Source: Neoarius graeffei
Taxonomy: Eukaryota > Chordata > Actinopteri > Siluriformes > Ariidae
Length of the DNA: 64,000 nt
NCBI RefSeq assembly: GCF_027579695.1
Contig: NC_083571.1
Span: forward strand, 45,750,390 to 45,814,389
Reading direction: 5' to 3'
The notes under the pieces: model-generated
Databases searched by the model: none
What the model was told of the DNA's origin: nothing
The model's input: only the letters and a program-made list of their open reading frames with translations
Shown here: piece after piece, positions 1,473 through 55,448 of the stretch
How the letters are laid out: every line of letters begins with the position of its first letter
How positions within the stretch are numbered: position 1 is the stretch's first letter
Position numbers and translations under genes: made by a program

Positions 1473-3078
1473 CAGTGGTGCTTAAAAGTTTGTGAACCCT
1501 TTAGAATTTTCTATATTTCTGCAAAAATATGACCCAAACCATCATCAGATTTTCACACAAGTCCTAAAAGTAGATAAAGAGAACCCAGTTAAACAAATGA
1601 GACAAAAATATTATACTTGGTCATTTATTTATTGAGGAAAATGATCCAATATTACAAATCTGTGAGTGGCAAAAGTATGTGAACCTTTGCTTTCAGTATC
1701 TGGTGTGACCCCCTTGTGCAGCAATAACTGCAACTAAACGTTTGCGGTAACTGTTGATCAGTCCTGCACACCGGCTTGGAGGAATTTTAGCCCATTCCTC
1801 TGTACAGAACAGCTTCAACTCTGGGATGTTGGTGGGTTTCCTCACATGAACTGCTCGCTTCAGGTCTTTCCACAACATTTCCATTGGATTAAGGTCAGGA
1901 CTTTGACTTGGCCATTCCAAAACATTAATTTTATTCTTCTTTAATCATTCTTTGGTAGAACGACTTCTGTGCTTAGAGTCGTTGTCTTGCTGCATGACCC
2001 ACCTTCTCTTGAGATTCAGTTCATGGACAGATGTCCTGACATTTTCCTTTAGAATTCGCTGGTATAATTCAGAATTCATTGCTCCATCAATGATGGCAAG
2101 CCGTCCTGGCCCAGATGCAGCAAAACAGGCCCAAAACACAATACTACCACCACCATGTTTCACAGATGGGATAAGGTTCTTATGCTGGAATGCAGTGTTT
2201 TCTTTTCTCCAAACATAACGCTTCTCATTTAAACCAAATTGTTCTATTTTGGGCTCAGCCGTCCACAAAACATTTTTCCAATAGCCTTCTGGCTTGTCCA
2301 CATGATCTTTAGCAAACTGCAGACAAGCAGCAAGTTTTTTGGAGAGCAGTGGCTTCCTCCTTGCAACCCTGCCATGCACACTATTGTTGTTCAGTGTTCT
2401 CCTGATGGTGGACTCATGAACATTAACATTAGCCAATGTGAGAGAGGCCTTCAGTTGTTTAGAAGTTACTCTGGGGTCCTTTGTGACCTTGCCGACTATT
2501 ACACGCCTTGCTCTTGGAGTGATCTTTGTTGGTCGACCACTCCTGGGGAGGGTAACAATGGTCTTCAATTTCCTCCATTTGTACACAATCTGTCTGACTG
2601 TGGATTGGTGGAGTCCAAACTCTTGAGAGATGGTTTTGTAACCTTTTCCAGCCTGATGAGCATCAACAACGCTTTTTCTGAGGTCCTCAGAAATCTCCTT
2701 TGTTCGTGCCATGATACACTTGCACAAACATGTGTTGTGAAGCTCAGACTTTGATAGATCCCTGTTCTTTAAAAAAACAGGGTGCCCACTCACACCTGAT
2801 TGTCATCCCATTGATTGAAAACACCCGACTCTAATTTCACCTTCAAATTAACTGCTAATCCTAAAGATTCACATACTTTTGCCACTCACAGATATGTAAT
2901 ATTGGATCATTTTCCTCAATAAATAAATGACCAAGTATCGTATTTTTGTCTAATTTGTTTAACTGGGTTCTCTTTATCTACTTTTAGGACTTGTGTGAAA
3001 ATCTGATGATGTTTTGGGTCATATTTATGCAGAAATATAGAAAATTCTAAAGGGTTCACAAACTTTCAAGCACCACTG
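1473..3078 (-). mobile_element. Tc1-like transposon, family A, copy 1
   Basis: Both ends carry CAGTGGTGCTT(G/A)AAAGTTTG in inverted orientation and sit on TA dinucleotides (1471-1472, 3079-3080). A second internal direct/inverted repeat (GTGAGTGGCAAAAGTATGTG) marks the inner edge of each long terminal region. Length is about 1.6 kb, normal for Tc1. The transposase reads on the minus strand and is dead. Three more copies of this family occur at 6.5, 39.8 and 53.4 kb. Confidence 0.95.
1693..2712 (-). pseudogene. Tc1 family A transposase, inactive
   Basis: The protein starts MARTKEISEDLRKSVVDAHQ, has the paired helix-turn-helix DNA-binding region, the GRPTKI linker and the catalytic core, and ends GGHTRY. 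It is about 340 residues, the family length. The start at 2712 is chosen because all copies share MAR/MAQTKE there; an upstream in-frame Met exists at 2793. Three faults are visible: a TGA replaces a tryptophan codon near 1942, the first catalytic aspartate is lost (WTAEPKIE where copy 2 has WMDETKIE), and one codon is missing after LLSKK. Confidence 0.93.
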
Positions 3079-6464: not shown

Positions 6465-8065
6465 CAGTGGTGCTTGAAAGTTTGTGAACCCTTTAGAATT
6501 TTCTGCATAAATATGACCTAAAACATCATGAGATTTTCACACAAGTCCTAAAAGTAGATAAAGAGAACCCAGTTAAACAAATGAGACAAAAATATTAGAC
6601 TTGGTCATTTATTTATTGAGGAAAATGATCCAATATTACATATCTGTGAGTGGCAAAAGTATGTGAACCTCTAGGATTAGCAGTTAATTTGAAGGTGAAA
6701 TTAGAGTCAGGTGTTTTCAATCAATGGGATGACAATCAGGTGTGAGTGGGCACCCTGTTTTATTTAAAGAGCAGGGATCTATCAAAGTCTGATCTTCACA
6801 ACACATGTTTGTGAAAGTGTATCATGGCACGAACAAAGGAGATTTCTGAGGACCTCAGAAAAAGCGTTGTTGATGCTCATAAGGCTGGAAAAGGTTACAA
6901 AACCATCTCTAAAGAGTTTGGACTCCAGCAATCCACAGTCAGACAGATTGTGTACAAATGGAGGAAATTCAAGACCATTGTTACCCTCCCCAGGAGTGGT
7001 CGACCAACAAAGATCACTCTAAGAGCAAGGCGTGTAATAGTCGGCGAGGTCACAAAGGACCCCAGGGTAACTTCTAAGCAACTGAAGGCCTCTCTCATAT
7101 TGGCTAATGTTAATGTTCATGAGTCCACCATCAGGAGAACACTGAACAACAATGGTGTGCACAGCAGGGTTGCAAGGAGAAAGCCACTGCTCTCCAAAAA
7201 GAACATTGCTGCTTGTCTGCAGTTTGCTAAAGATCACGTGGACAAGCGAGAAGGCAATTGGAAAAATGTTTTGTGGATGGATGAGACCAAAATAGAACTT
7301 TTTGGTTTAAATGAGAAGCGTTATGTTTGGAGAAAGGAAAACACTGCATTCCAGCATAAGAACCTTATCCCATCTGTGAAACATGGTGGTGGTAGTATCA
7401 TGATTTGGGCCTGTTTTGCTGCATCTGGGCCAGGACGGCTTGCCATCATTGATGGAACAATGAATTCTGAATTATACCAGCGAATTCTAAAGGAAAATGT
7501 CAGGACATCTGTCCATGAACTGAATCTCAAGAGAAGGTGGGTCATGCAGCAAGACAACGACCCTAAACACACAAGTCGTTCTACCAAAGAATGGTTAAAG
7601 AAGAATAAAGCTAATGTTTTGGAATAGCCAAGTCAAAGTCCTGACCTTAATCCAATGGAAATGCTGTGGAAGGACCTGAAGCGAGCAGTTCATGTGAGGA
7701 AACCCACCAACATCCCAGAGTTGAAGCTGTTCTGTACGGAGGAATGGGCTAAAATTCCTCCAAGCCGGTGTGCAGGACTGATCAACAGTTACCGCAAACG
7801 TTTAGTTGCAGTTATTGCTGCACAAGGGGGTCACACCAGATACTGAAACCAAGGTTCACATACTTTTGCCACTCACAAACATGTAATCTTGGATCATTTT
7901 CCTCAATAAATAAATGACCAAGTGTAATATTTTTGTCTCGTTTGTTTAACTAGGTTCTCTTTATCTACTTTTAGGACTTGTGTGAAAATCTGATGATGTT
8001 TTAGGTCATATTTATGCAGAAATATAGAAAATTCTAAAGGGTTCACAAACTTTCAAGCACCACTG
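6465..8065 (+). mobile_element. Tc1-like transposon, family A, copy 2 (nearly intact)
   Basis: TA target duplication at 6463-6464 and 8066-8067; both ends match copy 1. The element is 1.6 kb and lacks the tRNA-SINE insertion seen in copies 3 and 4, so it shows the uninterrupted state. Confidence 0.96.
6824..7846 (+). pseudogene. Tc1 family A transposase, one nonsense codon
   Basis: The 340-codon frame begins MARTKEISEDLRKSVVDAHK. Catalytic residues are present: Asp in WMDETKIE, Asp in MQQDNDPKHT and Glu in DLNPMEMLW (DD34E arrangement). A single TAG replaces tryptophan at 7625-7627 (VLE-stop-PSQSP, where copy 1 has VLEWPSQSP). Otherwise the frame is open to the GGHTRY terminus. This is the best-preserved family A copy here and a good guide to the others. 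Confidence 0.95.
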
Positions 8066-23487: not shown

Positions 23488-24440
23488 GCTTGGGCTGAAG
23501 TGCCCTTGAGCAAGGCACCTAACCCACAACTGCTCCTCAGGCACTGTAGCATAGTTGCCCACTGCTCTGGGTATGTGTGTGTGCTCATTGCTTACTTGTG
23601 TGTGCGCGCATATATGTGTGTTCACCGCTTTAGAAGGGGTTAAATGCAGAGATTAAATTTCACTGTGTGCTTAAGGCCAAGTTTACATTAGACCATATCT
23701 GTCTCGTTTTCTTCGCGGATGCACTGTCCATTTACATTAAAACGCCTGGAAACGCCGGGAAACGGGAATCCGTCAGGGTCCACATATTCAATCCAGATTG
23801 TGTCTGGTCCGGTGCTGTGTAAACATTGAGAATATGCGGATACGCTGTGCTGAGCTCTAGCTGGCGTCGTCATTGGACAACGTCACTGTGACATCCACCT
23901 TCCTGATTCGCTGGCGTTGGTCATGTGACGCGACTGCTGAAAAACGGCGCGGACTTCCGCCTTGTATCACCTTTCATTAAAGAGTATAAAAGTATGAAAA
24001 TACTGCAAATACTGATGCAAATACTGCCCATTGTGTAGTTATGATTGTCTTTAGGCTTGCCATCCTTCCACTTGCAAGTGGTAAGTGACTTGCGCACAGC
24101 GGCTCAGTCCCGAATCACTGCTCGTGCGCTTAACTTGTGTGCTCTGTGAGCTGCGCAGGGCCGGAGTGCGCACCCTCCAGAGGGCACTCGCTGTTCAGGG
24201 CGGAGTGATTTGGAGCGCAGCCGCTGAGGAGGAAGCGATGAGCCGCACTGACACATTTCAACTTACGTGCCGAATTAGTCATGTGATTAGGGTATCCGTG
24301 TATTGGCGTTGCTGTGTGCACGCTAATCGTTTTTAAAAACGTTAATCTGATGATCCGCTGATACGGTCTAATGTAAACCCCACCTCAGTCTGTGCTTGAG
24401 TGTACATGTGACAAATAAAGGCTTCTTGGCTGCTTCTTCT
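23488..24440 (+). repeat. SINE 3' part (GTGCCCTTGAGCAAGG type), split by a MITE
   Basis: The left part GAAGTGCCCTTGAGCAAGGC…GGTTAAATGCAGAGA and right part TGTGACAAATAAAGGCTTCT are halves of the SINE 3' region also seen at 40.8-40.96 kb and 54.2-54.35 kb. The tRNA-like head is absent. Confidence 0.75.
23690..24388 (+). mobile_element. MITE with GTTTACATTAGACC ends, copy 1
   Basis: Ends GGCCAAGTTTACATTAGACC and inverse of the right end (GTTTACATTAGACCGTATCAG) are imperfect inverted repeats; it sits within the SINE 3' region at TGTGCTT. The internal frame with CELRRAGVRTLQRALAVQGG recurs on the opposite strand at 52.6-52.8 kb in a second copy. Confidence 0.7.
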
Positions 24441-39371: not shown

Positions 39372-39656
39372 AGGCACTCAGTGATGAGGAAAGCCACCCT
39401 TATCACTGAAGACCTTTCCCACCCCCTGCACCACTCCTTCATGTTGCTGCCATCTGGCAGACAATACAGAACCCCACTGGCCCGGAAAACATCTATAAGA
39501 AATCATTCATCCCCTTTGCAATAATTGTTCTAAACAGCACAAAATAGGTTGCACTATTTGTTGCTGTGTGTGAATGTGTTTGTGTGTTTTTAATTTCTGT
39601 TGAAGTCGTGTCTAAGACAAATTTCTATTTTTTTTTACTGAAGAACAGACAATAAA

Positions 39657-39731: not shown

Positions 39732-40483
39732 TTGTACTTGCAATAATTACAGTGGTGCCCTTAAGTTTGTGAACCCTTTAGAATTTTCTATATTTCTGCA
39801 TAAATATGACTGAAAACATCATCAGATTTTCACACAAGTCCTAAAAGTAAATCAAGAGAACCCAGTTAAACAAACAAGACAAAAGTATTATACTTGGTCA
39901 TTCATTTATTGAGGAAAATGATCCAATATTACATATCTGTGAGTGGCAAAAGTATGTGAACCTCTCGGATTGGCAATTAATTTGAAGGTGAAATTAGAGT
40001 CAAGTGTTTTCAATCAATGGGGTGACAATCAGGTGTGAGTGGGCACCCTGTTTTATTTAAAGAACAGGGATCTATCAAAGTCTGATCTTCACAACACATG
40101 TTTGTGGAAGTGTATCATGGCACAAACAAAGGAGATTTCTGAGGACCTCAGAAAAAAAACGTTGTTGATGCTCATCAGTCTGGAAAAGGTTATAAAACCA
40201 TCTCTAAAGAGTTTGGACTCCACCAATCCACAGTCAGACAGATTGTGTACAAATGGAGGAAATTCAAGACCATTGTTACCCTCCCCAGGAGTGGTCGACC
40301 AACAAAGATCACTCCAAGAGCAAGGCGTGTAATAGTCGGCGAGGTCATAAAGGACCCTAGGGTAACTTCTAAGCAACTGAAGGCCTCTCTCACATTGGCT
40401 AATGTTAATGTTCATGAGTCCACCATCAGGAGAACACTGAACAACAGTGATGTGCATGGCAGGGTTACAAGAAGAAAGCCAGT

Positions 40484-40595
40484 GTCAGGATGGCTGAGTG
40501 GTCTAAGGCGCCAGACTCAAGGCTTAGTCCTTCCCTCACTGCATGAGGATTCTGGTCTCTGAATGGAGGCGTGGGTTCGAATCCCACTTCTGGCA
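40484..40595 (+). tRNA. tRNA-Leu(CAA) with intron, inside a Tc1 element
   Basis: The acceptor strand GTCAGGA pairs with TTCTGGC (with G-T pairs). A box TGGCTGAGTGG and B box GGTTCGAATCC are perfect. The anticodon stem CCAGA/TCTGG holds loop CTCAAG with CAA at 40,518-40,520; a 28-nt intron (40,522-40,549) follows position 37, as in vertebrate tRNA-Leu(CAA). The long variable arm is of leucine type. TTTTTT at 40,605-40,610 is a Pol III terminator. It looks expressible, but the acceptor stem has weak pairs, so it may be a pseudogene. Confidence 0.8.
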
Positions 40596-40610
40596 TGAGT
40601 ATACTTTTTT

Positions 40611-40964
40611 GGGGCAGCACGGTGGTGTAGTGATTAGCACAGTCGCCTTACAGCAAGAAGGTTCTGGGTTCGAACCCAGCGGCCAGCAAGGGCCTTTCTG
40701 TGTGGAGTTTGCATGTTGCGTGTTTCCTCTGGGTGCTCTGGTTTCCCCCACAGTCCAAAGACATGTAGTTATGTTAATGTGGGGCGGCCTTGGGCTAAAG
40801 TGCCCTTGAGCACCTAACCCAGACTGCTCCCCGGGCGCTCTAGTGTGGCTGCCCACTGCTCTGGGTCTGTGTGTGTGTGTTCACTGCTTCAGATGGGTTA
40901 AATACAGAGGATGAATTTCATTGTACTTGAAGTGTGCATGTGACAAACAAAGGTTTCTTCTTCC
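40611..40964 (+). repeat. SINE with GTGCCCTTGAGCACC tail, downstream of the tRNA-Leu
   Basis: The head GGGGCAGCACGGTGGTGTAG and core match the DANA/Mermaid type, but the 3' half differs: GTGCCCTTGAGCACCTAACC…GTGACAAACAAAGGTTTCTT. The same 3' half occurs at 23.5-24.4 kb and 54.2 kb. Confidence 0.88.
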
Positions 40965-42017
40965 ACTGCTCTCCAAAAAGAATATTGCTGCTTGTCTGCA
41001 GTTTGCTAAAGATCACATGGACAAGCCAGAAGGCTATTGGAAAAATGTTTTGTGGATGGATGAGACCAAAATAGAACTTTTTGGTTTAAATGAGAAGCGT
41101 TATGTTTGGAGAAAGGAAAACACTGCATTCCAGCATAAGAACCTTATCCCATCTGTGAAACATGGTGGTGGTAGTATCATGGTTTGGGCCTGTTTTGCTG
41201 CATCTGGGTCAGGATGGCTTGCTATCATTGATGGAACAATGAATTCTGAATTATGCCAGCAAATTCTAAAGGAAAATGTCAGGACATCTGTCCATGAACT
41301 GAATCTCAAGAGAAGCTGGGTCATGTAGCAAGACAACGACCCTAAGCACACAAGTCGTTCTACCAAAGGATGATTAAAGAAGAATAAAGCTAATGTTTTG
41401 GAATAGCCATGTCAAAGTCCTGACCTTAATCCAATCGAAATGTTGTGGAAGGACCTGAAGCGAGCAGTTCATGTGAGGAAACCCACCAACATCCCAGAGT
41501 TGAAGCTGTTCTGTACGGAGGAATGGGCTAAAATTCCTCCAAGCCGGTGTGCAGGACTGATCAACAGTTACCGGAACCGTTTAGTTGCGGTTATTGCTGC
41601 ACAAGGGGGTCACACCAGATACTGAAAGCAAAGGTTCACATACTTTTGCCACTCACAGATATGTAATATTGGATCATTTTCCTCAATAAATAAATGACCA
41701 AGTGTAATATTTTTGTCTTATTTGTTTAACTGGACTCTCTTTATCTACTTTTAGGACTTGTGTGAAAATCTGATGATGTTTTAGGTCATATTTATGCAGA
41801 AATATAGAAAATTCTAAAGGTTTCACAAACTTTCAAGCACCACTGTACATTATACCACTGCCTCACATAAAACACATCCAGTTCAAGTAGGGCTTAAAGC
41901 TTATATGCAGAACCATGGCTTCACTTTTTGTTTATAAATGCCTTGAGACCTCAAGAATGGCATAGGAATAGTTTTAAGCATTAACAATAAATCTAATATA
42001 GTAATTTTTACGATTAA

Positions 42018-42700
42018 AGTGATTCATATAGGTAGCGGTCTGAGTGAATTACCTTGACATCTGTGACGTCACAGCAGGAAGGCTATTGGTCTCATCGCCA
42101 TTTCCGCTATACTAAAACACAGAGCTGACTGCAACTCCGAGCTTCCATTTTGAGCTAATTTATCACCATGCCATGTAGATGTGTTGCTGGCCGGTGCAGC
42201 AACACGACAGAAGGTGGATTTACTGTATGTTGCATTCATGGCCCAAGAATGTTCAAACTGCAAAGATTTGGACGCGTTTTGCGAGAAATTCACGGATTGG
42301 GCGTCTACTGCACATTTTACTGAGGACTCGTATGAAACCTCTGATCTGTTGAGGAGCGTTGGCTATAAGCCCGTATTGAAAGAGGGTACAGTACCAGCAA
42401 TTAAGAAAAGAAGACTATAAGAAAAGGAAAGTAAGTTCAGTTGCACCAGTTCTCCCAGAGTGTGAGCCGAGCAGTAATGGCAGAGTACTCAGTATGGAGA
42501 ATGAGTGGATCAGTCATCAGACTTCTGCGCTGGATATGCTCTCTCCCCCCCCCCCCCCCAGCTGAATATGCTTGCCTCAGCAGCAGTATCTCACCCTTAC
42601 GTGGAAGAAGTGAATGAACGAAGAACTGAAAGTCAGATTGTTTCAAAACAATCGGCCACAAGCTCAGCCTTCAAAAGCGAGAACACAGACGGGTAAGACA
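42018..42700 (+). mobile_element. Kolobok-type THAP element, left end and first exons
   Basis: TTAA (42014-42017) is followed by AGTGATTCATATAGG, similar to the AGTGCATATC terminus of the complete element at 50.9 kb. A THAP exon follows 150 bp inside. The right end was not found, so the extent given covers only the part seen. Confidence 0.45.
42168..42420 (+). pseudogene. THAP-domain exon, frame broken
   Basis: It starts MPCRCVAGRCSNTTEGGFTV with the two N-terminal zinc cysteines. After a frame change (between about 42,200 and 42,290) it continues FTDWASTAHFTEDSYETSDL, containing the AHFTEDSY block that holds the last ligand, although the third cysteine is changed (STAH). It ends VPAIKKRRL. 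The domain is not functional. Confidence 0.65.
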
Positions 42701-43078
42701 CGACTCTCTCATTCGGCTACATAACAACAAAAACAACACTTGTTGTTTACCTGCATTTAGATTCATACATGTAATTTGTATTGTGCATTTAATTTACCAG
42801 TGTAAGATTATTTAATTTGCTTCAGAATGTGATTGTCTCAGTTCATCTGATTATTTAACTAGCCTTTTACATTTTATCAGTGAAAATGCATGCATGCACA
42901 TACTCTAGTAACATGCAAGAGTTAAAAGTCCTCTTATTTTAAGGCATTCGTGAATGTTTCTGCTTACATGTATTGCTTGAAAATGTTCAGTAAACACCTG
43001 TTCTAAATGCACCCTGGTCATCGTATGTATGTATGTATGTATGTATGTATGTATGTATGTATGTATGTATGTATGTAT
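42700..43078. other. No gene; ATAC/GTAT microsatellite at the right end
   Basis: GTAT units run from 43,022 to 43,078. The rest is AT-rich without a recognised feature. Confidence 0.6.
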
Positions 43079-43355
43079 ACACTCACAGAACACTTTATTA
43101 GGAACACCTCTACACCTGTTCATTCATGCAATTATCTAATCAGCCAATCGTGTAATGCATAAAATGTATTACACATTGCATAAATGTAGTGTAATGCATA
43201 AAATCATGCAGATACTGTCCAGCAGCTTCAAGTAATGTTCACATCAACCAGCAGAATGGATGATGTTGACTGTGGTATGACTGTTGGTGCCAGATGGGCT
43301 GGTTTGAGTATTTCTACAACTGCTGATCTTCTGGGATTTTTATGGAAGCATATTG
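43079..43355 (+). mobile_element. Tc1-like family D, 5' end fragment
   Basis: It begins with TACACTCACAGAACACTTTA and TTAGGAACACC, a common fish Tc1 terminus, and reaches the transposase region encoding VGARWAGLSISTTADLLGF (first helix-turn-helix of that family). It stops at a (CA)n tract (43,366-43,398). No 3' part was found. Confidence 0.65.
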
Positions 43356-43362
43356 CTGTCTG

Positions 43363-43398
<36 letters not shown>

Positions 43399-43399
<1 letters not shown>

Positions 43400-44609
43400 A
43401 AAAATAAAAAATAAAAATCAGTATCTCCTAATTACGTGAAAAGTTTATTGTTATAACAATATATTTTTCATGTTATAACAATATATTTTCATGTTTTTAC
43501 ATTAAATGTTTCAGTAAACATATAACGTGAAATGTTTCCTGTTACAACATGATAATTTGGTATAACATTTCATGTTAAAATGTGATAATTTATATATGGT
43601 ACTCTGCTTGTGACCCAGCAGCCTTTTGCAGTGAACCAGCATTTTTACAAAATTGCGATGTTCCAGAAGAGTGTTTTTCATGCCCGGAACAAGAACATGT
43701 AAGTGTATTTTTCCATTGCCCACTTATTGTATAACATGAATTTCATTGCTTTTACGGGTCATCCAACTTTACTTATGGCTGGTGTAGGTCAGCTAACTTA
43801 GCCATCTAGCCAGTTAGCCATCCGCAGTAAAGTTAGTTCAGGTTAGATACTCATTTTTAAATGCGGGTATACCCAATAAAAAAGGCAACTAACACCTTAC
43901 ACTGCCAGCCAAGTTTAGCTTTCTGTTCAGACTTAGGCCACACTCAACTGCAGGGAGCAATCATCATCACCTGCAGTCACAGAGCACACACACACGGGGG
44001 AAAAGTGATCAGTTCGCTGTCGGGCAAACTCTCATCCCCCAGTTGGTGCTCCTGTAAGTGTCAGAGCCCTGGTGTAAGATGCTTCAATCGGAGATTGTGT
44101 GCTGCAGGTCACTCTTTCATCCTTGACTGCAGTGTAGTTGCTGTGTTTCTGGTATAGTAACACCTTGCTGGACAGTTAACAGGTGTGTTTACAGTCTTTG
44201 TGTTATTTGGCCCAGAAATGGCCCAGAAGTGAATGCCTTTACTGGTGGAAAATGAGGTTACTGTTAACAATGGGTGAAACGCCATTGGATCCAGAGTGAA
44301 TGGTTGTCGAATATCCACTCTAAAATTAACTTCACCATGGTAGCCAGTTCCGGTACCGTAGTCCAGTAGGTTACCTTTTCGTGTTGAGGCACTGAGTAGA
44401 TGACAAGGACAAAACAAGTCATTAGATTTCATGACAAGTAAAATAAGCAATGAGATTAAACTTCAAATGGGTTATTGTAAGACAATGTGGGGTGTAACCA
44501 TGATGTCTACTTCCTAAACATACACAAAGAACCTGGAAGGGGGCATTTCTTTTATTGTTCCCATCCTTGTCAATTTTAGGTGGTCATTACCTGATGAAGT
44601 TTGCATTTG
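43399..44609. other. No confirmed gene; two exon-like frames
   Basis: A frame before GTAAGT at 43,700 ends FLQNCDVPEECFSCPEQEH. A second at 44,035-44,115 contains WCSCKCQSPGVRCFNRRLC, cysteine-rich. Both are plus strand and lie upstream of the HECT-like remnant, so they could be its 5' exons, but neither was recognised. Three 14-25 bp copies of ATGTTATAACAATATATTTT lie near 43,450-43,490. Confidence 0.3.
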
Positions 44610-44621
44610 GCAAGGATGGAT

Positions 44622-44994
44622 CTCATCTCATCTCATTATCTGTAGCCACTTTATCCTGTTCTACAGGGTCGCAGGCAAGCTGGAGCCTATCCCAGCTGAC
44701 TATGGGCGAAAGGCGGGGTACACCCTGGACAAGTCGCCAGGTCATCACAGGGCTGACACATAGACACAGACAACCATTCACACTCACATTCACACCTACG
44801 GTCAATTTAGAGTCGCCAGTTAACCTAACCTGCATGTCTTTGGGGGAAACCCGGAGCACCCGGAGGAAACCCACGCAGAGACACAGGGAGAACATGCAAA
44901 CTCCACACAGAAAGGCCCTCGCCGGCCACGGGGCTCAAACCCGGACCTTCTTGCTGTGAGGCGACAGCGCTAACCACTACACCACCGTGCCGCC
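44622..44994 (-). repeat. DANA/Mermaid-type SINE with 12-bp target duplication
   Basis: Full-length, flanked by GCAAGGATGGAT (44610-44621, 44995-45006). It is followed by (ATT)n to 45,034. Confidence 0.93.
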
Positions 44995-45268
44995 GCAAGG
45001 ATGGATTATTATTATTATTATTATTATTATTATTTAAAACTGCATAGTATTTTTAAACAGAATTACAAAGTACACAACTGTAAACTCCAGAACAGTTGTT
45101 AAGGGTAGCCATGGTAGCCCCTCCCCCTGCCCCCCTCCACCATATGTGTGAGTGTGAGTGTGCACATGGGTGTGGTGAGAGGATGCTGTAGGTGTTTCCA
45201 GTTTTTCTGTAATAGAGTTGTAATAATGATGTCTGTCTTGACAGATTGATGCCTGTCATTGACTTTAT

Positions 45269-47663
45269 GGATGACGACATTTGCTGGCTACATCCCATCA
45301 TATGGAGATCAGATAGCTGCAAGATGCTTCTGTTTGGAAAATAAAGGTACAAGTGCAAAAGAATAAAAAAAAATCACTGCTTGAGAAACTAAAGAAGAAG
45401 CTGGGCATTGATGGGAGTAATGATAAGTCTGATCATGAGGAGACTTTTGCGCCAATGCAGAAAAGAAGTTATGCAAGAAACAACAAATGGACTGAAAAAA
45501 AAGACTAGAAAAGTAGAGTTGGGATGGATTCATGAGGATCAAGTGAGAAAACACAAAGCAGGGGAACAAGGACCCTTGATATACCCAAAGAATCCAAAAA
45601 AGCTGACATATTACAGTATGCTAAAGACCTTTTCCTCCCAAATGGAAAATGTACATTTAGAAGATTTGAGACTTTCAGTCATGACATTAGATTATCAAGC
45701 GAAAGCTGTATTTGATGAAGATATCACAGTAGGGGAATTGTACACGTCACTAAGAATGGGAGTGCTAAGATTTTACCTGTGTACTAAGAGCCTGAGAGAT
45801 GAGGATGATGAAGAATATTTTGAGGAAAAATCAGATATGAACAATGCTGTACAACAGAGAGACACACATGAGAAAGATGAGCAAGCAACTCAAACTGTTG
45901 TCATCCTGTCACCAGATTTAAAGGATGTTGATGCAGATGGATTATCAAACACATCTGAGGTGATGTTTGGCCCCTTTCTTGGAGAACCAATGGCTAGTCA
46001 ACTGGATGACACTTTGATGCATCAATCCAGCCTGCAGTTTGAAGGAGATGAGCTGGTCCTCGCATCCGTCACACTTCCCCCAACAAGCACACCACTCATT
46101 ACTCCAGACACTGCATCTGGGGCTGATGGAGCAAGCAGTTCTACAAATTCATATGATGATGTATGTGTCACCATAAAATTTCACAGGGTCAATCTTCTGG
46201 AGGAGATGATCAGCCAGTTTAAGTATCCAGCACTCCTCAAACACCCCCTCAAATACACCTACATCAATGAAAAAGGAACTGATGCAGATGGCGTGTCAAG
46301 AGACATGTATGCTGCATTTTGAACTGAGTTTATAGACCACACAGCTGAAGGGGAGGAGCTGAAGGTTCCATCACTGTCTTCTAAATGGCAAAAAGAAGAG
46401 TGGAAATCCAATGGTCGAATTCTTCTGAAGGGATTTCAAAACCATAGATACTTTCCCTCTGTTTCAACAGTGGCACTGATTTTGGGTGAGAATGCAGTCA
46501 CAGATCATATGCTCTTTGAAAGGCTTCTGCTGTACTTTGTGAGGGTTTTGCTGGGATTCAAACCCAGGTCACTGGTGTGATAATCCAGCAAACCCCCACT
46601 GGGCCACCAGGGGGATGACTCAAGTGCAGAGGCGTGAGGCGAAAGTAGAGTATCAAAAAACAGTTTATTTACACTATGTACAATATTTACAATCCAATGA
46701 AAAAAAAACAAAAGGAAAGGCAAAATGCTGAACGCTCAGAAGATCCAAAACACAGTAAATACTTAGGTCCAAAAAGCAAAGCAAAGTGCAAAACCAAAAA
46801 GACAAGGAACACGGTACAGAGGAAACTGGAGCTAAACATAACAGCACAACATAGGAAAAAGACTCCGTGACAAGGGAACAAACAGAGGGGTATTTATACA
46901 CACAATAAATGGGAAACAGGTGACACTAATGAAGACAATCAACACAAACACAAGACACAGGAACAGTGGCAGCCTCTAGAGGCCAAAACAAACATGACAT
47001 GAAAAGGAAATAACAGCGGCCTCTAGAGGCCAAAACAGTCCCAGTCCTAACATACTTAAGTCAGTCAGAGAGGGATCTGATAACCACTGCCTTACAAGAG
47101 GATCTTTTACATGAGGACAGGGATGAACTAGTTCATCTTTTGGAGCACTTGAACGTAACAACACATCTAACACAAGAGAATTTAAAAGCCATCCTCATAA
47201 AAGTGGCACATAAGCAGTTGATCCAGAAACCAAGATATGCAACAGGAAAAATGTCATTAGTTGCAAACCATTTCCTCAGAGAAGCATTTGGGAGCCCACA
47301 AAAAGTCCTACAAATGTATGAAGATAAGAGCCAACAACAAAAAAGCTTTTGAAGTTGCTGGATGCATCTCCTACAACTCAAGCAGAGCACCAAAGCTTTC
47401 ATTTTCTGCAAAAGTACATCGGAGAACTGAATGACTCAGGACTCAGAAGAATGTTAAGGTTTGTCACAGGATCAGATGTTATCTGTGTTAACAAGGTTAA
47501 GGTCTTGTTTACACCTGTAGATGGATTGACACGACAACCAGTAGCGTATACCTGTGGGCCAGCTTTGGAGCTGTCATGGACATACACTTCCTACCCAGAA
47601 ATATGCACTGAAATGGACAATATACTGCTAGCTAAAAGCTCCTATAAATTCAGCATAGCTTAG
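45269..47663 (+). pseudogene. HECT-like gene remnant, multi-copy fish family, split by a solo LTR
   Basis: It begins with MTTFAGYIPSYGDQIAARCF, then an open 304-codon frame (45,408-46,322) with TRKVELGWIHEDQ, a ubiquitin-like region ending LRMGVLRFYLCTKS, an acidic linker, and a HECT N-lobe-like block (VTIKFHRVNLLEEM, then NEKGTDADGVSRDMYAAF). It resumes after the LTR with SERDLITTALQEDLL and ends with a C-lobe-like part: GLRRMLRFVTGSD, later VAYTCGPALEL and SSYKFSIA. The catalytic cysteine of HECT ubiquitin ligases would be in TCGP. A stop near 46,320 and a frame change near 47,345 show it is dead. Family assignment rests on recalled similarity to fish HECT/G2E3-like predictions. Confidence 0.6.
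46538..47052 (-). mobile_element. Solo LTR (fossil LTR retrotransposon)
   Basis: A 515-bp unit with TG…CA ends, flanked by the 5-bp duplication TACTT (46533-46537, 47053-47057). On the minus strand it has a TATAAATA box, an AATAAA signal and GGCCTCTAGAGGCC near its start. No internal region remains, so it is the product of LTR-LTR recombination. A tRNA-like A box and B box lie near its 3' end, which is unusual. Family not assigned; the 5-bp duplication fits Ty3/gypsy-type elements. Confidence 0.75.
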
Positions 47664-48350
47664 TCAAGTTCATGTCTCTGGTACCAAGCCACACAATGAA
47701 AATGATTGATGGATGCATGAAAAGTATTGTTTCGATCTATTCAACATATACACACAAGGTAAAGCCATTGTAACATGAAAAGAGAAAGGTGGAGTTAAAT
47801 TTGAGTGAATATGTATTTAGGGTTTCAAAATTTAGAATAATAAACGTGTCAATAACAAGAGCAGATGGCTAACTTTGAGATGAATGTACTCCTGAAAATA
47901 TAAGGTTGAAATATCTAGAACAACAGCTTGGCAAAATGAAATTGTGAAATTAAATTTGTAATCAATAACGCATCTTTTTTTTTTCTGAGGGTACAGTTGG
48001 ACATTTCAAAGTTCTATCTGTTAACGTAATGCTTACCAAGAAGTACTGTTGTTATAGTACCTGTCCGTGTTTGAGAACTGGATCTGCTCATGTTTACTTC
48101 TACAGAAGCACAAAAACCTTTTTTTTTATTGTCTGCCAAGTTTGTTCAAAACAGGCTTTTTCCTTTTAAGGCTGCTTCCATTTGATGAGCTCCCATAGAG
48201 AGCAAAGAGTGCAAGATATATGTTCATTTCAGTAGTTAATTGTACTGACTGTACTGATCTTAACAGCAGTTTATGGTTTTAGACTCAGTATTTTGGTAGA
48301 CATATCACTTAACGATATTGTGAAAACTGCTCTACATTTTGTTGCTACAC
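47664..48350. other. No gene recognised
   Basis: AT-rich, with T-runs at 47,975 and 48,119. It could be the 3' UTR or flank of the HECT-like remnant. Confidence 0.35.
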
Positions 48351-48354
48351 TTAA

Positions 48355-49804
48355 CCCTTTGATGCAAAACATATGCACACCCCTTCTAATGCACAACATG
48401 GGTCAAAAATGACCTGCATTCATTTTCCAGGTTATTTCATGCTGACTGAGTTTTTCTTTGCTCTATCTTTTGAAATCAATTTATTTTATGATTGAATATT
48501 CCAAGTATTCTTTAAATATCTTGTTTTTAATTACCACAAATCATTAATTTAATTTTTTCTTTCCTACTTTATGAACAAAAATACTTTTTATATTACTACA
48601 CATGGGTCATCCAAGTGTGTTTTAAAATTAAATGTCTTAATACTATAATAATAATTAGTTTCAAGTAATTACTTTAGCAGTGAATGGGGCCAGTTATTTA
48701 TTTATTAACTATAGTTAGCTAAGCCAACTACAATAAAATTAGCTAACTAAAGTAGAATATGTCAACAGCTAGGTAGCTAATAATAATTACTTGTAACTTT
48801 CTGACAAGTAATCTACTCACTGTCAAGGTAACCTAAACATAATCAATTTTTTTCTAAGGTAATGTTAGAACAATTGAAAAACATTACTTACATGTATTAG
48901 ATGGGCAAAGGGCGCTGCGCTGAGCTGTGAAATGTCTGACACAAGCACAATTCACAGTTCCCACCAAACACTGTAGTAAATGCATGCGGGTCGTTTCTGA
49001 CCCACTTGATGTAGAATTACAAAAGCTGTGCTTGTTCATAACTTCATCTCATCTCATTATCTCTAGCCGCTTTATCCTGTTCTACAGGGTCGCAGGCAAG
49101 CTGGAGCCTATCCCAGCTGACTACGGGCGAAAGGCGGGGTACACCCTGGACAAGTCGCCAGGTCATCACAGGGCTGATACATAGACACAGACAACCATTC
49201 ACACTCACATTCACATCTACAGTCAATTTAGAGTCACCAGTTAACCTAACCTGCATGTCTTTGGACTGTGGGGGAAACCGGAGCACCCGGAGGAAACCCA
49301 CGCGGACATGGGGAGAACATGCAAACTCCGCACAGAAAGGCCCTCGCTGGCTACGGGGCTCGAACCCGGACCTTCTTGCTGTGAGGCGACAGCGCTAACC
49401 ACTACACCACCGTGCCGCCTGTTCATAACTTAAGAAAGGAAAAATAAAAATGATGATTTGTGCTAAACAAAAACAAGATATTTACTGCATATTTGGAAAA
49501 ATAAATGACAAAATGAATTTATTTCAAAAGTATATCATAGAAACACTCAGCCATACATGAAATAAGCTGGAAAATGAATGCAGGTCATTTTTGACCCATG
49601 TTGTGCATTAGAAGGGTAGTGATACAAAAAGGGTTTTTATTCAAAAAGTAAGAAAGGAAAAAATAAAATAAGGATGTATGATGATTAAAAACAAGTTAAT
49701 TGAGGAATACCTTGAATACTGAATGATGGAATTAATTTATTGCAAAGATATAGAAGATAAAAACTCAGTCGGGTCACTTTTGACCCATGTTTTGCATCAA
49801 AGGG
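48355..49804. mobile_element. piggyBac-like palindromic MITE holding a SINE
   Basis: Ends CCCTTTGATGCAAAACATAT and inverse, flanked by TTAA (48351-48354, 49805-49808). A second inverted pair lies inside (TTCTAATGCACAACATGGGT and inverse at about 49,585-49,615). GGGTCA-n-TGACCC-type palindromes recur at 48,400, 48,985, 49,586 and 49,770. No transposase remains. TTAA plus CCCT ends fits piggyBac. Confidence 0.85.
49045..49420 (-). repeat. DANA/Mermaid-type SINE with 11-bp target duplication
   Basis: Full-length, flanked by GTTCATAACTT (49034-49044, 49421-49431), inside the piggyBac-like element. Confidence 0.93.
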
Positions 49805-49808
49805 TTAA

Positions 49809-50885
49809 AGTGGAAATAAATGCACAGTTGCACCTTTCAAATGGAATATTCACTGTCATTTTTGTTTGGGCAGAACATTTCAGGGTTTTTTTCTCCTATG
49901 TGTATTCATGGGGGAGGCAAAAATCAAGACCTCTCTTTGTTCTCAAGAAAAGAAAAAAAAGAAAAGGAAGTTACTTGATCTATAAAATGGTTTGTCTATT
50001 ACTCAGTCAGTTTGACACATTTTTGTTTTTTCGTAGATCACAAAAAAAATCAATAAGTAAGGTTGCTGAGTAATATGACTGAATATTGTCATCCCAGATT
50101 AAAACAGTAAAATAAGAAAAAAAAATCCACATTTGAAAAACAACTGTTTATGCATGTCTTTGGTATCAGCAATGGAAAAATTTATTTTATATTATGAAAA
50201 CAAAAACAAAGGGACATAAACCCTGTTGTTAGAGAACTACAAGGAAGAACTCTCAAGAGTGTCGAGTACCCCTTCTCATGAAACACAGATTGCATGTTAT
50301 TGGTAAACATAACTACACCAACACACTCTTGCACATTTTGAAATACCTTGGCAAACCACTTGTTTTTCTTGATCCTACTTATCCCTCATCATTGTGTCAC
50401 AAATATAAATTAGCTGTTGCTAGATTCAGATAAGTTCCTCTCGTAGCAGGTTCACCTCACAGTGGACCTCATCAGCCTCTCAGTCCGGAACCATTTCATC
50501 CTGACAACTTGACAAAAGAAAAGGATATGTTAGACAGTCCAGAATAGCAAATTTTAGATTCAGAATCACTTTGGGATCACCTTACATCACCATACCTTCA
50601 AGTACAAATTAAAGGTCTGGGGCATCTTTCCAAATAGTATTATTTGGCAAATTAAAGGGTAGCATCAAACACTTGAACAACTTCTTAGACAAAACAACAG
50701 GAGGCAAACTGCAGAGCCCTAGTCTTTATGTTTCATCCCTTCTAGGAGGAGCCACAACAGTCTCAAAGTTTGGGCAGGCAAGGAGTTCTTCTCATGATGA
50801 GCATGACACAGCACTGAACTCAGTTGATGTCTTCTATGTGGGACTAACTTGTTGACCTCAGTGACCTGGCCCTATTATGACAGTT
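49809..50885. other. No confirmed gene; possible last exon of the integrase-core gene
   Basis: On the minus strand TTTTGTCAAGTTGTCAG is followed by a frame (about 50,503-50,425) with EADEVHCEVNLLREELI before a stop. This lies downstream of the integrase-core exons at 55.4 and 63.4 kb on the same strand and could be the end of that gene, but carries an internal stop and may be chance. Confidence 0.25.
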
Positions 50886-51221
50886 TTAAAGTGCATATCA
50901 CGGGTAAATTCAGGAGCAAGATCAATGTAATTCGCCTATTTTATATTAAACTTTGGTCAAATATCTGTCACATTTAGCATTTTGTGCAATTTTTTTACCT
51001 TGTGCAATACCAGAAAAATTCAGTTGAAATCAATCCATTTGAGGCGAATTGGTCCGCCTCTGAAAAAACTTGGCATTTGGATTTCCCGGCAAACATTGAT
51101 TTTCGTGACGTCGCGTGCGGGACGCCTCCTTCTGAATCCTACGTCAGCGCTGGTTTGTTTATGAGAAAATGACCTGCTGGTTTTCTGCAAATTTCTTCAA
51201 CATTACCACGTAATTATTAAA

Positions 51222-51665
51222 ATGGTTAACAGATGTATCGTAGAAGGGTGTAGCAACACCATTCTTGATGGGATTAGTACTCATCATTTCCCAAAAGACC
51301 GGGCAACGAGAGAGAAATGGGAGCACTTCGTGTGAGGCACCCGGAAAAATGGGCTACATGCTACAGACTACAGCATCATATGCAGGGCTCACTTCACAAG
51401 GCCCGATGACTTTGAGAACTATTTGCAGTGGGAAATGGGCTTCGCGAGGCAACTTGAGCTGAAAAAAGACGCAGTTCCGTCTGTTAGAATACCCAAAGCA
51501 ACACCATCTCCATCTGTGTCAGCGTCACCAAAGGAGCCAGCCATGTTCGTCTTCCCTGACAGAAGGCGAAGTGCAAAATCCACTGAGGCCCTCAAAGCCG
51601 AGGACCAAGCAGAGCCGAGAAAAAGACCAAGAAAATCGGCAATTCACAAGTTGACTGTTGCCAGG
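51222..51665 (+). pseudogene. THAP-domain first exon with one nonsense codon
   Basis: MVNRCIVEGCSNTILDGIST has the first two zinc cysteines (residues 5 and 10); HHFPKDRATREKWEHFV follows, then a TGA (51,336-51,338), then DYSIICRAHFTRPDDFENYL with Cys-x2-His. The C-terminal part is basic (AEPRKRPRKSAIHKLTVAR), probably a nuclear localisation signal, and ends at AGG-GTAAGA. One stop apart, all THAP ligands are present. Confidence 0.8.
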
Positions 51666-51791
51666 GTAAGAAATAAGAGAGCCGATACTCTAAATTAGGT
51701 GTTCCTGTGTTTGTGTGGTACACGGATAATGTTATTTATTGACACACACAAAAGTAAACAACACGAAAGCGCTGGGCGATAATACACTTAC

Positions 51792-51944
51792 TTCACATGT
51801 ATTATTTACATCCCCGGTGTCGTCTCCATCGTCTTCACTACTTGAATCATCATCAAATCCAAACAGATGAAGCCCCGACTCTGACATCTCATTACATTCT
51901 TCATCTAAAGGTGAAGTATCATTGCATTCAGGTGACAATTCCAT
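51792..51944 (-). pseudogene. Acidic first exon facing the THAP exon
   Basis: MELSPECNDTSPLDEECNEM begins a 51-codon frame with FGFDDDSSSEDDGDDTGDV in it, ending VNNTCE at a GTAAGT donor, phase 0. The composition is strongly acidic and serine-rich. It probably starts the second gene of the autonomous element. No function is known to me. Confidence 0.5.
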
Positions 51945-52385
51945 ATTTCAATGCAAAATCGCTAGCTGCTAAACTTGGTCTACACAGGCTGTGCACTAAA
52001 ACCGTGCAAGCTCTTGCAGCCTGCTGGCGCTTCCGCAGGTGACGTCACGAATCTGGCTCCAGACTCCCTTGGGATTTTTCCAGACACGTTTTGTTATTTT
52101 ATTTTTTTTCTGCTGTAGACAGATGGCCTTGTGCAAAATTACCCTTCTGGATGAGTGTGTAAAGGGATATACTTTCATATTTAAAAAAAAAAACGAATTT
52201 GGTCCAGGATATGCACTTTAAGTGAGCAGATGTACAAAGTAGATAAAATGTTTTGTGAAACTCACATTCTTTTTTTCTCTCTCTCTGTACAGATCAGGAC
52301 ATGAAAACAAAACTCATGACTGTGATTAGTTTTTTTTTTTATATTTTGCTCACAGCTGAAAATATTACAAACTAACCAAGCCTTA

Positions 52386-53257
52386 GGCTACGTTTACATT
52401 ACGTCGAATCAGCGGATCATCAGATTAACGTTCTTAAAACGATTCGCGTTTACACTAAAACCGTTAGCCGTGCACACAGCAACACCAATACACAGATACG
52501 CTAATCACATGACTTTAGACGGCGCGTAACATGATCCCAGTGCATTTCAGACGGCGCGTAACATGATCCCAGTGCATTTAGGGCATGCGCAAGGCTCACC
52601 ACTTGCAAGTAGAAGGATGGCAAGCCGCGCAAGGCTCACCACTTGCAAGTAGAAGGATGGCAAGCCTAATACACGGATACGCTCGGCTCCGCAGGCATCC
52701 TGCGCTCCAAATCACTCCGCCCTGAACAGCGAGTGCCCTCTGGAGGGTGCGCACTCCGGCCCTGCGCAGCTCACACAGCGCGCAAGTGAAGTGCACAAGC
52801 CACGATTCGGGACTGAGCCGCTGTGTGTGAGATCCCAGCTCATATCACTTACCACTTGCAAGTGGAAGGATGGCAAGCCTAAAGACAATCATAACTACAC
52901 AATGGGCAGTATTTGCATCAGTATTTGCAGTATTTTCATACTTTTATACTCTTTAATGAAAGGTGATACAAGGCGGAAGTCCGCGCCTTTTTTCAGCAGT
53001 CGCGTCACATGACCAACGCCAGCGAATCAGGAAGGTGGATGTCACAGTGACGTTGTCCAATGAGACGCCAGCTAGAGCTCAGCACAGCGTATTCGCGTAT
53101 TCTGAATGTTTACACAGCACCGGAGCTGACACGATCTGGATTGAATACGTGGACGCTGGCAGATTCCCGTTTCCTGGCGTTTCCAGGGGGTTTAATGTAA
53201 ACGGACAGTGCATCCGCAAAGAAAACAAGACAGATACGGTCTAATGTAAACGTAGCC
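52386..53257 (-). mobile_element. MITE with GGCTACGTTTACATTA ends, copy 2
   Basis: Ends GGCTACGTTTACATTA and inverse are flanked by TTA (52383-52385, 53258-53260). A unit CGCAAGGCTCACCACTTGCA is tandemly doubled (52,568-52,665). The interior matches the copy at 23.69-24.39 kb in opposite orientation. The 3-bp TTA duplication suggests the PIF/Harbinger group. Confidence 0.75.
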
Positions 53258-54205
53258 TTAGTTGGAATAATGTAGCCCTGCCTTAATGTTCCAGAACACT
53301 TGGGGCAATTTACAAGTCTTTAAGTATGCATGCCCTCAGGAAGAGATAGAGCTCCATGGCTTCATCTGCTGTGGAGGGCGGGTGTAGGTACAGTGGTGCT
53401 TGAAAGTTTGTAAACCCTTTAGAATTTTCTATATTTCTGCATAAATATGACCTAAAACATCATCAGATTTTCACACAAGTCCTAAAAGTAGATAAAGAGA
53501 GCCCAGTTAAACAAATGAGACAAAAATATTACACTTGGTCATTTATTTATTGAGGAAAATGATCCAATATTACATATTTGTGAGTGGCAAAAGTATGTGA
53601 ACCTTTGCTTTCAGTATCTGGTGTGACCCCCTTGTGCAGCAATAACTGCAACTAAATGTTTCCGGTAACTGTTGATCAGTCCTGCACACCGGCTTGGAGG
53701 AATTTTAGCCCATTCCTCCATATAGAACAGCTTCAACTCTGGGATGTTGGTGGGTTTCCTCACATGAACTGCTCGCTTCAGGTCCTTCCACAACATTTCG
53801 ATTGGATTAAGGTCAGGACTTTGACATGGCTATTCCAAAACATTAGCTTTATTCTTCTTTAATCATCCTTTGGTAGAACGACTTGTGTACTTAGGGTCGT
53901 TGTCTTGCAGCATGACCCACCTTCTCTTGAAATTTAGTTCATGGACAGATGTCCTGACATTTGCCCAGATGCAGCAAACCAGGCCCAAACCATGATACCA
54001 CCACCATGTTTTACAGATGGGATAGGTTCTTATGCTGGAATGCAGTGTTTTCCTTTCTCCAAACATAACACTTCTCATTTAAACCAGAAAGTTCTATTTT
54101 GGTCTCATCCGTCCACAAAATGTTTTTCCAATAGCCTTCTGGCTTGTCCACGTGATCTTTAGCAAACTGCAGACAAGCAGCAATGTTCTTTTTGGAGAGC
54201 AGTGG

Positions 54206-54557
54206 AAGAAGAAACCTTTGTTTGTCACATGCACACTTCAAGTACAGTGAAATTCATCCTCTGCATTTAACCCATCTGAAGCAGTGAACACATGCACACA
54301 CACCCAGAGCAGTGAGCAGCCACACTAGAGCGCCCGGGGAGCAGTCATGGGTTAGGTGCTCAAGGGCACTTTAGCCCAAGGCCGCCCCACGTTAACCTAA
54401 CTACATGTCTTCAGACTGTGGGGGAAACTGGAGCACCCAGAGGAAACACGCAACATGCAAACTCCACACAGAAAGGCCCTTGCTGGCCGCTGGGTTCGCA
54501 CGCAGAACCTTCTTGCTGTAAGGCGACTGTGCTAACCACTACACCACCGTGCCGCCC
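54206..54557 (-). repeat. SINE with GTGCCCTTGAGCACC tail, downstream of the tRNA-Leu (copy 4)
   Basis: Matches the SINE of copy 3 throughout, including the GTGACAAACAAAGGTTTCTT end. It is not a separate insertion event. Confidence 0.88.
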
Positions 54558-54574
54558 CCCAAAAAAGATACTCA

Positions 54575-54686
54575 TGCCAGAAGTGGGATTTGAACCCACG
54601 CCTCCATTCAGAGACCAGAATTCACACACAGTGAGGGAAGGACTAAGCCTTGAGTCTGGCACCTTAGACCACTCGGCCATCCTGAC
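54575..54686 (-). tRNA. tRNA-Leu(CAA) with intron, second copy in a Tc1 element
   Basis: Same gene structure as the 40.48 kb copy. The A box here is TGGCCGAGTGG, the normal tRNA-Leu form; the B box is GGTTCAAATCC. The intron differs slightly (ACTGTGTGTGAAT against ACTGCATGAGGAT). The change GGCGCC to GGTGCC affects the D arm. Probably no longer functional as a tRNA but keeps Pol III promoter boxes. Confidence 0.75.
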
Positions 54687-55448
54687 ACTGGCTTTCTTCT
54701 TGCAACCTTGCCATGCACACCATTGTTGTTCAGTGTTCTCCTGATGGTGGACTCATGAACATTAACATTAGCTAATGTGAGAGAGGCCTTCAGTTGCTTA
54801 GAAGTTACCCTGGGGTCCTTTATGACCTCGCCAATTATTACACGCCTTGCTCTTGGAGTGATCTTTGTTGGTCAACCACTCCTGGGGAGGGTAACAATGA
54901 TCTTGAATTTCCTCCATTTGTACACAATCTGTCTGACTGTGGATTGGTGGAGTCCAAACTCTTTAGAGATGGTTTTGTCACCTTTTCCAGCCTGATGAGC
55001 ATTAACAATGCTTTTTCTGAGGTCCTCAGAAATCTCCTTTGTTCACGCCATGATACACTTCCACAAACATAAGTTGTGAAGATCAGACTTTGATAGATCC
55101 CTGTTCTTTAAATAAAACAGGGTGCCCACTCACACCTGATTGTCATCCCATTGATTGAAAACACCTGACTCTAATTTCACCTTCAAATTAACTGCTAATC
55201 CTAGAGGTTCACATACTTTTGCCACTCACAGATATGTAATATTGGATCATTTTCCTCTATAAATTAATGACCAAGTATTTTTTTTTGTCTCATTTGTTTA
55301 ACTGGGTTCTCTTTATCTACTTTTAGGACTTGTGTGAAAATCTGATGATGTTTTCAGTCATATTTATGCAGACTTATAGAAAATTCTAAAGGGTTCACAA
55401 ACTTTCAAGCACCACTGTAGTTATCTACCATTATAAAGCAACACAAAC

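Follow-up and report, generated by a model that had tools for sequence, protein, structure and literature searches.

The window, the whole 64,000-nucleotide stretch of Neoarius graeffei DNA that was analysed, contains four Tc1/mariner transposons, defined by their terminal inverted repeats, TA duplication and Tc1-type transposase. In reverse orientation, the left 214 bp of copy 3 match the right end of each of the four copies at 92.5-93%, and TA is present at both sides of every copy. The transposase piece of copy 2 scored above the cut-off for PF01498 (HTH_Tnp_Tc3_2) and PF25787 (HTH_SB); in this piece, which ends at a stop, PF13358 (DDE_3) reached 26.1 and remained below its cut-off of 28.6. 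Alignment of the four elements showed that copies 1 and 2 run uninterrupted across the transposase position at which a single homologous insert of about 485 bp, with identical border bases, is present in copies 3 and 4. The insert is composed, in this order, of GT, an intron-containing tRNA-Leu, a trailer with T6 and a SINE that begins at its own 5' end (Table 1). The single insert, the empty site of copies 1 and 2 and the composition of the insert as tRNA-Leu(CAA) with intron, T6 and SINE had been put forward in the original prediction, and all three are borne out by the alignment, by Rfam and ARAGORN with introns allowed, and by the sequence.

Table 1. Tc1 copies in the window and components of the insert
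Feature	Position	Strand	Basis or remark
Tc1 copy 1	1473-3078	-	empty site
Tc1 copy 2	6465-8065	+	empty site; one stop inside transposase frame
Tc1 copy 3	39750-41845	+	TA-flanked; bears insert; transposase frame interrupted
Left CCA	40479-40481	+	candidate target duplication of 2-3 bp; same bases at 40963-40965
GT	40482-40483	+	likely pre-tRNA 5' leader
tRNA-Leu(CAA) with intron, copy 3	40484-40595	+	Rfam RF00005; ARAGORN, introns allowed
tRNA 3' trailer TGAGTATAC and T6, copy 3	40596-40610	+	sequence
SINE, copy 3	40611-40963	+	tRNA-like head to TTC-repeat tail
Tc1 copy 4	53391-55417	-	TA-flanked; bears insert homologous to that of copy 3
SINE, copy 4	54205-54560	-	copy alignment
Trailer TGAGTATC and T6, copy 4	54561-54574	-	sequence
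tRNA-Leu(CAA) with intron, copy 4	54575-54686	-	Rfam; ARAGORN, introns allowed

The two insert tRNAs were the only Rfam matches in the window at the gathering score (43.4 bits in copy 3, 44.1 bits in copy 4). ARAGORN reported no gene in the window before introns were allowed; with introns, both were called tRNA-Leu with a 28-nt intron, the anticodon being given as CAA for copy 4 and as CAG for copy 3. Read from the sequence, the anticodon of the insert tRNA is taken as CAA. The GT directly before the tRNA also precedes 21 of the 27 tRNA-Leu-like rows of the genome that start at base 1, a count from which the L006 rows were dropped because they represent the same place as L070. When the trailer with the tRNA end was searched in the genome with up to two mismatches, it was found in copy 3, copy 4 and locus L008 (C15) only. 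Copies 3 and 4 differ at 26/484 sites of the insert and at 69/1551 of the Tc1 part. Within the insert, the tRNA (7/112 differences) has changed no more slowly than the SINE (17/353), and there is no sign of purifying selection on it. The SINE is itself tRNA-derived, as established by its high copy number, dispersion, tRNA-like head and simple-repeat (TTC) tail: a first look at the genome gave 6956 candidates, and a pattern of CTTTT plus the SINE head gave 3555 matches with up to two mismatches.

Copies 3 and 4 are located at separate TA sites, and the 1.4 kb that flank them on each side have nothing in common. Segmental duplication, which the original prediction had named as a possible refutation, is thereby ruled out. 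Other flank pairs have dispersed repeats in common. The two interrupted elements have in common 11 Tc1 states that set them apart from copies 1 and 2, distributed over columns 66-1992 of the 2108 in the alignment; seven of these do not occur in any of the other rows (3 to 6 per state) that cover them, as polarised with Tc1 stretches from just four further loci. Since the TA sites are separate, the flanks unrelated and the derived substitutions common along nearly the whole element, it was Tc1 that carried the insert. Taken with the empty sites, this upholds the proposal that a retroposed tRNA-SINE became the passenger of a DNA transposon: a single landing of the unit in Tc1 was followed by one further copy nearby, by common Tc1 descent. 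The predicted multiplication by Tc1 and spread through the genome, however, fails. The left junction was found at six places and the right one at four (up to three mismatches), and among these matches the only Tc1 junctions are those of the two window copies, 11.5 kb apart, versus 39,436 matches to the empty Tc1 site. The left junction gave no match in viral contigs.

The tRNA-SINE arrangement is not confined to Tc1. Among 41 tRNA-Leu-like matches in the genome, 17 are followed by the same SINE head, which lies on the same strand and at most 45 bp from where the tRNA ends, where about 0.2 would be expected by chance (for a 40-bp window, from the SINE density of the window analysed). Fifteen of the 17 lie outside the window, and tRNA-SINE units occur outside Tc1 and with other borders, an outcome that the original prediction had counted against itself. 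On the opposite strand, a SINE match within 160 bp accompanies only two of the 41, one of them a self match in the window insert and the other 108 bp upstream. A wider pattern search returned 46 matches, of which 24 have before the SINE a tRNA 3' end of one of nine classes, defined by vertebrate tRNA ends that were picked after the strings had been seen. Ten of these 24 trailers end in at least T3, with one further base allowed, and 14 have no T-run end; both window copies have T6 at the join. A distance control gave 146 raw matches, more than the 46 of the test. By raw pattern count there is therefore no enrichment, and it is the strand- and position-specific tRNA-Leu count that carries the argument. 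Among nine control strings, each truncated, none bears by eye one of these vertebrate tRNA 3' ends, and these nine resemble a SINE beside a SINE, an inverted SINE or other repeats.

Judged from the patterns and the fetched loci, the tRNAs for Ser, Gly, Glu, Asp, Ala, Pro and Arg are further partners, with Pro, Asp and Ala assigned from the 3' ends alone. In the pattern loci, ARAGORN identified Leu (L112, L007), Arg (L113), Ser (L092) and Glu (L110), although with the settings of the trailer count no gene was reported in L110. L114 has a Gly body by eye and was called Ser from its anticodon, and Rfam detected no tRNA in L108 and L111. The tRNA part is cut at the 5' end in L008, L047, L106, L107 and L108. 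The Gly units L106 and L107 have a near-identical trailer and one and the same join point but SINEs of two types; as their bodies show about four differences by eye, one in the anticodon, the two may stem from two genes. Units of tRNA-Ser and SINE are clustered on C1, and full-length Leu units occur in local duplicates (L058 twice, L066 once, L069 twice). The genome search for a SINE-free source gene of the Leu and Gly trailers gave none, both trailers being present in fused copies only.

Target duplications were analysed in 20 units (L049, L058, L059, L066, L069, L109 and L114 were left out) under two settings, which differ in the windows and in the tail anchors of several units. L008, L047 and L055 are each enclosed, as whole units, by direct repeats of 8-10 bp. 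Repeats of at least 8 bp around the whole unit were found in 4/20 units (AT-rich in one of them) versus 10/380 mismatched pairs (p 0.003), and in the narrower window in 3/20 versus 4/380. At SINE-only borders, repeats of at least 7 bp in the narrower window were slightly above chance (2/20 versus 3/380, p 0.02), and L064 and L067 have 6-7 bp repeats positioned as for insertion of the SINE alone. Most of the 20 units show no convincing repeat, and the window copies have only the 2-3 bp candidate.

A small RNA lies 5' of the SINE head, in sense orientation and with different partners, which is one mark of a template-switch chimera. At a nicked Tc1 copy, a LINE-encoded reverse transcriptase would have copied a SINE RNA, left its 5' end and continued on the 3' oligo(U) of a pre-tRNA-Leu that was neither processed nor spliced, so that the tRNA primary transcript and the SINE formed a single insert; the interrupted Tc1 would then have been mobilised once, by transposase from elsewhere, to yield the second copy. 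The switch, the LINE partner and the transposase in trans are inferred, and this two-step account as a whole is considered somewhat more probable than its negation. Similar fusions with several tRNA species recur in the genome, which suggests that unprocessed tRNAs are captured again and again when the SINE is copied; the window insert would be one case of this. The broader proposition is put more tentatively, at rather less than even odds: that the reverse transcription complex of the SINE switches repeatedly to nuclear, unspliced pre-tRNAs of many classes, at their 3' ends, and not to U6, and that new tRNA-headed SINEs recur, one of them as DNA-transposon cargo. The 5'-cut tRNA parts, the Gly trailer with two SINE types, the Ser cluster and the repeats around L008, L047 and L055 favour template switching. 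U6 is the usual template-switch partner, and the lack of any exact genome match in which the SINE head comes within 20 bases of a U6 3' end counts against template switching. Also against it are the trailers seen in fused copies only, the two Gly genes that may be involved, the 14 trailers with no T-run end, the units with no convincing repeat and the outcome of the distance control.

The joining step of the original prediction, Pol III read-through, is ranked as less probable than template switching, given that T6 precedes the join, which lies at the SINE's own 5' end, and that a single Gly trailer occurs with two SINE types at one join point. T6 is a strong Pol III terminator. In such a scheme SINEs would have been situated 3' of tRNA genes, Pol III would have passed the terminator and the fused RNAs, retroposed by means of the SINE tail, would have been truncated at the 5' end; such a locus would behave as a two-headed SINE. 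The local duplicates of Leu units, the Ser cluster and the repeats of L064 and L067 fit this scheme, as does the trailer that the window insert and L008 have in common, but the SINE of copy 3 lies nearer to the plain SINEs used for comparison (0.08-0.13), nearly all picked as best matches to it, than to that of L008 (0.16). The window and L008 SINE parts are not sisters in the tree, where support is mostly weak, and both units may descend from one fused source. Read-through is accordingly given a minor though real share of the probability. Some retroelements insert preferentially at the 3' ends of tRNA genes, and a SINE with this preference would explain its frequent position just 3' of tRNA-Leu and beside several classes, the window insert being a later copy of such a locus; the strict orientation, the 5'-cut tRNA parts of several units and the insertion of tRNA plus SINE as one unit in the window make this improbable. 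For the second step only, gene conversion between neighbouring Tc1 copies without transposition would agree with the proximity of the sole two carriers found, yet almost all of the element would need replacing, given the extent of the derived sites, and it is regarded as unlikely.

The origin of the junction between tRNA heads and SINE bodies has long been a question. Many independent joins, some with truncated ends and involving several tRNA classes, seem to be present in this genome, which could allow direct study of the joining step. The units would inflate gene counts with tRNA-like copies, and the Tc1 ride, with two copies only, is a curiosity. Dimeric SINEs also have a tRNA-related 5' part ahead of the SINE body. 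The same holds for tRNA-Leu-headed SINEs such as Cn-SINE of Coilia nasus (PMC3292006), as described there, whereas here the SINE is complete and follows a tRNA that has an intron and a terminator of its own, and the partners belong to several tRNA classes. MER6, a Tc1/mariner MITE with an internal V-SINE, likewise arose by retroposition of a SINE into a Tc1/mariner element that then carried it (PMC6887750); it is given there with hundreds of copies per genome, primates being tabulated, and with no mention of a tRNA gene passenger in the account cited, in contrast to the two copies and the tRNA passenger found here. In mammalian tRNA/LINE-1 chimeras tRNA sequence also enters together with a retroelement, mostly as antisense tRNA halves according to the account in PMC13174262, while the units described here are sense, have a complete tRNA 3' end, a trailer and, for Leu, an intron, and have a SINE as partner. 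A known case of template switching is offered by the U6-SINE and U6-L2 chimeras of platypus Mon-1 and lizard AnolisSINE2, for which a small Pol III RNA 5' of the SINE, frequent 5' truncation and small target duplications with L2-type elements are reported (PMC4476161); the first two features recur in the units described here, a few of which are also enclosed by short direct repeats, and the difference lies in the partner, which here is a pre-tRNA of several classes, with its intron in tRNA-Leu, and not U6 in any exact join.

One Tc1 family is represented by four copies in the window. In copies 3 and 4 the transposase frame is interrupted at one and the same position by about 485 bp of inserted sequence, with identical border bases; in copies 1 and 2 that position is empty. 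The insert comprises, in this order, GT, a tRNA-Leu with its intron (recognized by Rfam, and by ARAGORN with introns allowed), a trailer with T6 at its end, and a SINE closing with a TTC tail; CCA lies on either side, hence a candidate target duplication of 2-3 bp. Compared with other places matching the insert query, the SINE starts at its own 5' end. Among the matches listed, 26 of 38 other places start at query bases 131-136, the first bases past the T-run, 11 begin elsewhere (114-127, 142 or 145), and the remaining one is a fused locus (L024/L008), where a tRNA part is followed by a same-strand SINE. Elsewhere in the window an element of about 740 bp with inverted ends of about 20 bp, the end word of which recurs further along, interrupts a SINE whose 3' half is similar. 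The window also contains a local duplication, in which two SINE copies are preceded by near-identical flanks.

Coordinates of the features discussed
Feature	Sequence	Positions	Strand
Tc1 copy 1	window	1473-3078	-
Tc1 copy 2	window	6465-8065	+
SINE, duplicated upstream flank	window	15952	
Interrupted SINE	window	23489-24427	
SINE, duplicated upstream flank	window	34902	
Tc1 copy 3	window	39750-41845	+
Recurring end word	window	near 53180-53260	
Tc1 copy 4	window	53391-55417	-
tRNA-Ser(GCT) units	C1	19.5-30.4 Mb	
L066 and L069	C8	near 20.01 Mb	
tRNA-Leu-like cluster	C13	9.308-9.346 Mb	
U7 snRNA match	L008	853-909	+

Copies 3 and 4 occupy separate TA sites, and no similarity was found between their flanks across 1.4 kb. 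Between them, 69 of 1551 sites differ in the Tc1 part and 26 of 484 in the insert, so the insertion is of about the same age as the split of the two copies. At eleven sites both have a common state that is seen in neither copy 1 nor copy 2. On polarization with Tc1 stretches from four other loci (L019, L030, L032 and L094), where a row within the terminal repeats may represent the opposite Tc1 end, seven of these states were missing from the 3 to 6 covering rows and four occurred in some rows. Since the seven are spread over columns 66 to 1992 of 2108, descent from one ancestral interrupted copy is favoured over conversion of a short tract.

When up to three mismatches are allowed, the left junction is present at 6 places in the genome. 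It is exact in both window copies and has 2-3 mismatches in the other four. Two of these four, L012 and L013, are tRNA-Leu copies that lack the window's Tc1; L011 and L014 gave no tRNA match. The right junction was found at 4 places, exact in both window copies and with 3 mismatches in two that resemble plain SINE tails. The empty site, with up to two mismatches, occurs at 39,436 places (19,992 plus 19,444), which shows that this Tc1 group has expanded very strongly. The original prediction was that Tc1 had multiplied the tRNA-SINE chimera and spread Pol III promoters through the genome; with so few junction matches against so many empty sites, this does not hold, and the cargo appears, as far as these searches see, to have doubled once, locally, without spreading.

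Fused tRNA-SINE units recur elsewhere in the genome. The genome search with the 112-nt tRNA gave at least 41 matches (the best candidates being scored), all examined within the retrieved loci. A same-strand SINE head lies within 45 bp past the tRNA 3' end in 17, both window copies counted, against about 0.2 expected from the window SINE density, and L049 adds one beyond a partial tRNA match. Local duplicates (two in L058, one in L066 with two in L069, and the two window copies) bring the 17 to about 13 loci. In 23 of the 41 no SINE head was found there, including a C13 cluster of eight, in which L003 is the best-scoring SINE-free match to the window tRNA. An opposite-strand match within 160 bp was found in two of the 41, one a self match inside the window insert and the other 108 bp upstream. 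Introns and trailers of these tRNA-Leu-like copies are of several kinds.

A pattern of T-arm followed by a SINE head within 42 bases matched 46 places genome-wide and its reverse none; as a distance control (SINE head 112-142 bases away) matched 146, the raw count is no evidence. A 3' end matching one of nine vertebrate tRNA classes with up to two mismatches is present in 24 of the 46 and missing from 22, the 24 being distributed as Gly 5, Glu 4, Asp 4, Leu 3, Arg-ACG 2, Ala 2, Pro 2, Arg-TCT 1 and Ser 1. Window copy 4, L007, L047 and L109 are among these 24; of the 24 trailers, ten end in at least three T, one further base allowed. At 8 of the 46, a repeat end GGTTCGAATCCCAGCAAAACCCTAACA precedes the SINE head with a spacer of varying length. 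Thirty loci were selected by a T-run in front of the SINE head; in twelve of them (L092-L103) a tRNA-Ser(GCT) can be recognized upstream by eye. These are duplicated tRNA-trailer-SINE units dispersed along C1, with common flanks in the four inspected and a 3' flank shared by L109, and constitute a source of extra tRNA-Ser copies. Rfam, applied to 20 of the 30, matched two, both of the C1 cluster, and left 18 without a tRNA, so only a minor fraction of the SINEs is fused. In the set of nine fused loci L106-L114, Rfam reports a tRNA in six, with a score that exceeds the gathering threshold in five and falls slightly short of it in L107; none was found in L108, L109, L111, L008 or L047. L008 contains a U7 snRNA match (37.9 bits, gathering score 34).

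The preferred reading is that the units arose by reverse transcription passing from the SINE RNA on to a pre-tRNA. Such a template switch would fit the cut 5' part of the tRNA in L008 (base 29), L047 (base 28), L106, L107 and L108, the occurrence of a near-identical Gly trailer with two different types of SINE (the Gly bodies differ at about 4 positions), the strictly sense orientation of the SINE, and the position of the join, which in some of the units is a T-run. Direct repeats of at least 8 bp surround whole units in 4/20 against 10/380 mismatched pairs (p 0.003), in 3/20 against 4/380 within a narrower window (p 0.003), and in 4/18 against 5/306 in an earlier run (p 0.0007); L092, one of the four, is AT-rich, and the second repeat of L047 lies 14 bases past the tail. 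At SINE-only borders no repeat of 8 bp or more was found among 20 units, and the narrower window gave at least 7 bp in 2/20 against 3/380 (p 0.02) and at least 6 bp in 5/20 against 37/380 (p 0.05). With these repeats, and with L064 and L067 looking like SINE-only insertions, a mixture of whole-unit and SINE-only insertions is possible. These SINE-only-like repeats keep read-through of older fused tRNA-SINE loci a serious rival, as do two further results that count against the template switch: no U6 chimera with a SINE was found in a search for the exact U6 3' end with the SINE head within 20 bases, and neither the window Leu tRNA end with its trailer nor that of the Gly pair was found, with up to two mismatches, on a SINE-free copy.

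Among the openly licensed papers listed, no treatment of pre-tRNA/SINE chimeras in fish was found in titles and abstract openings. A SINE inside a Tc1/mariner element is reported for the MITE MER6 (PMC6887750). One catalogue contains 21 tRNA/LINE-1 chimeras, mostly antisense halves (PMC13174262), and in platypus and lizard U6-SINE chimeras are attributed to template switching, and the duplications described for L2-type elements are small (PMC4476161).
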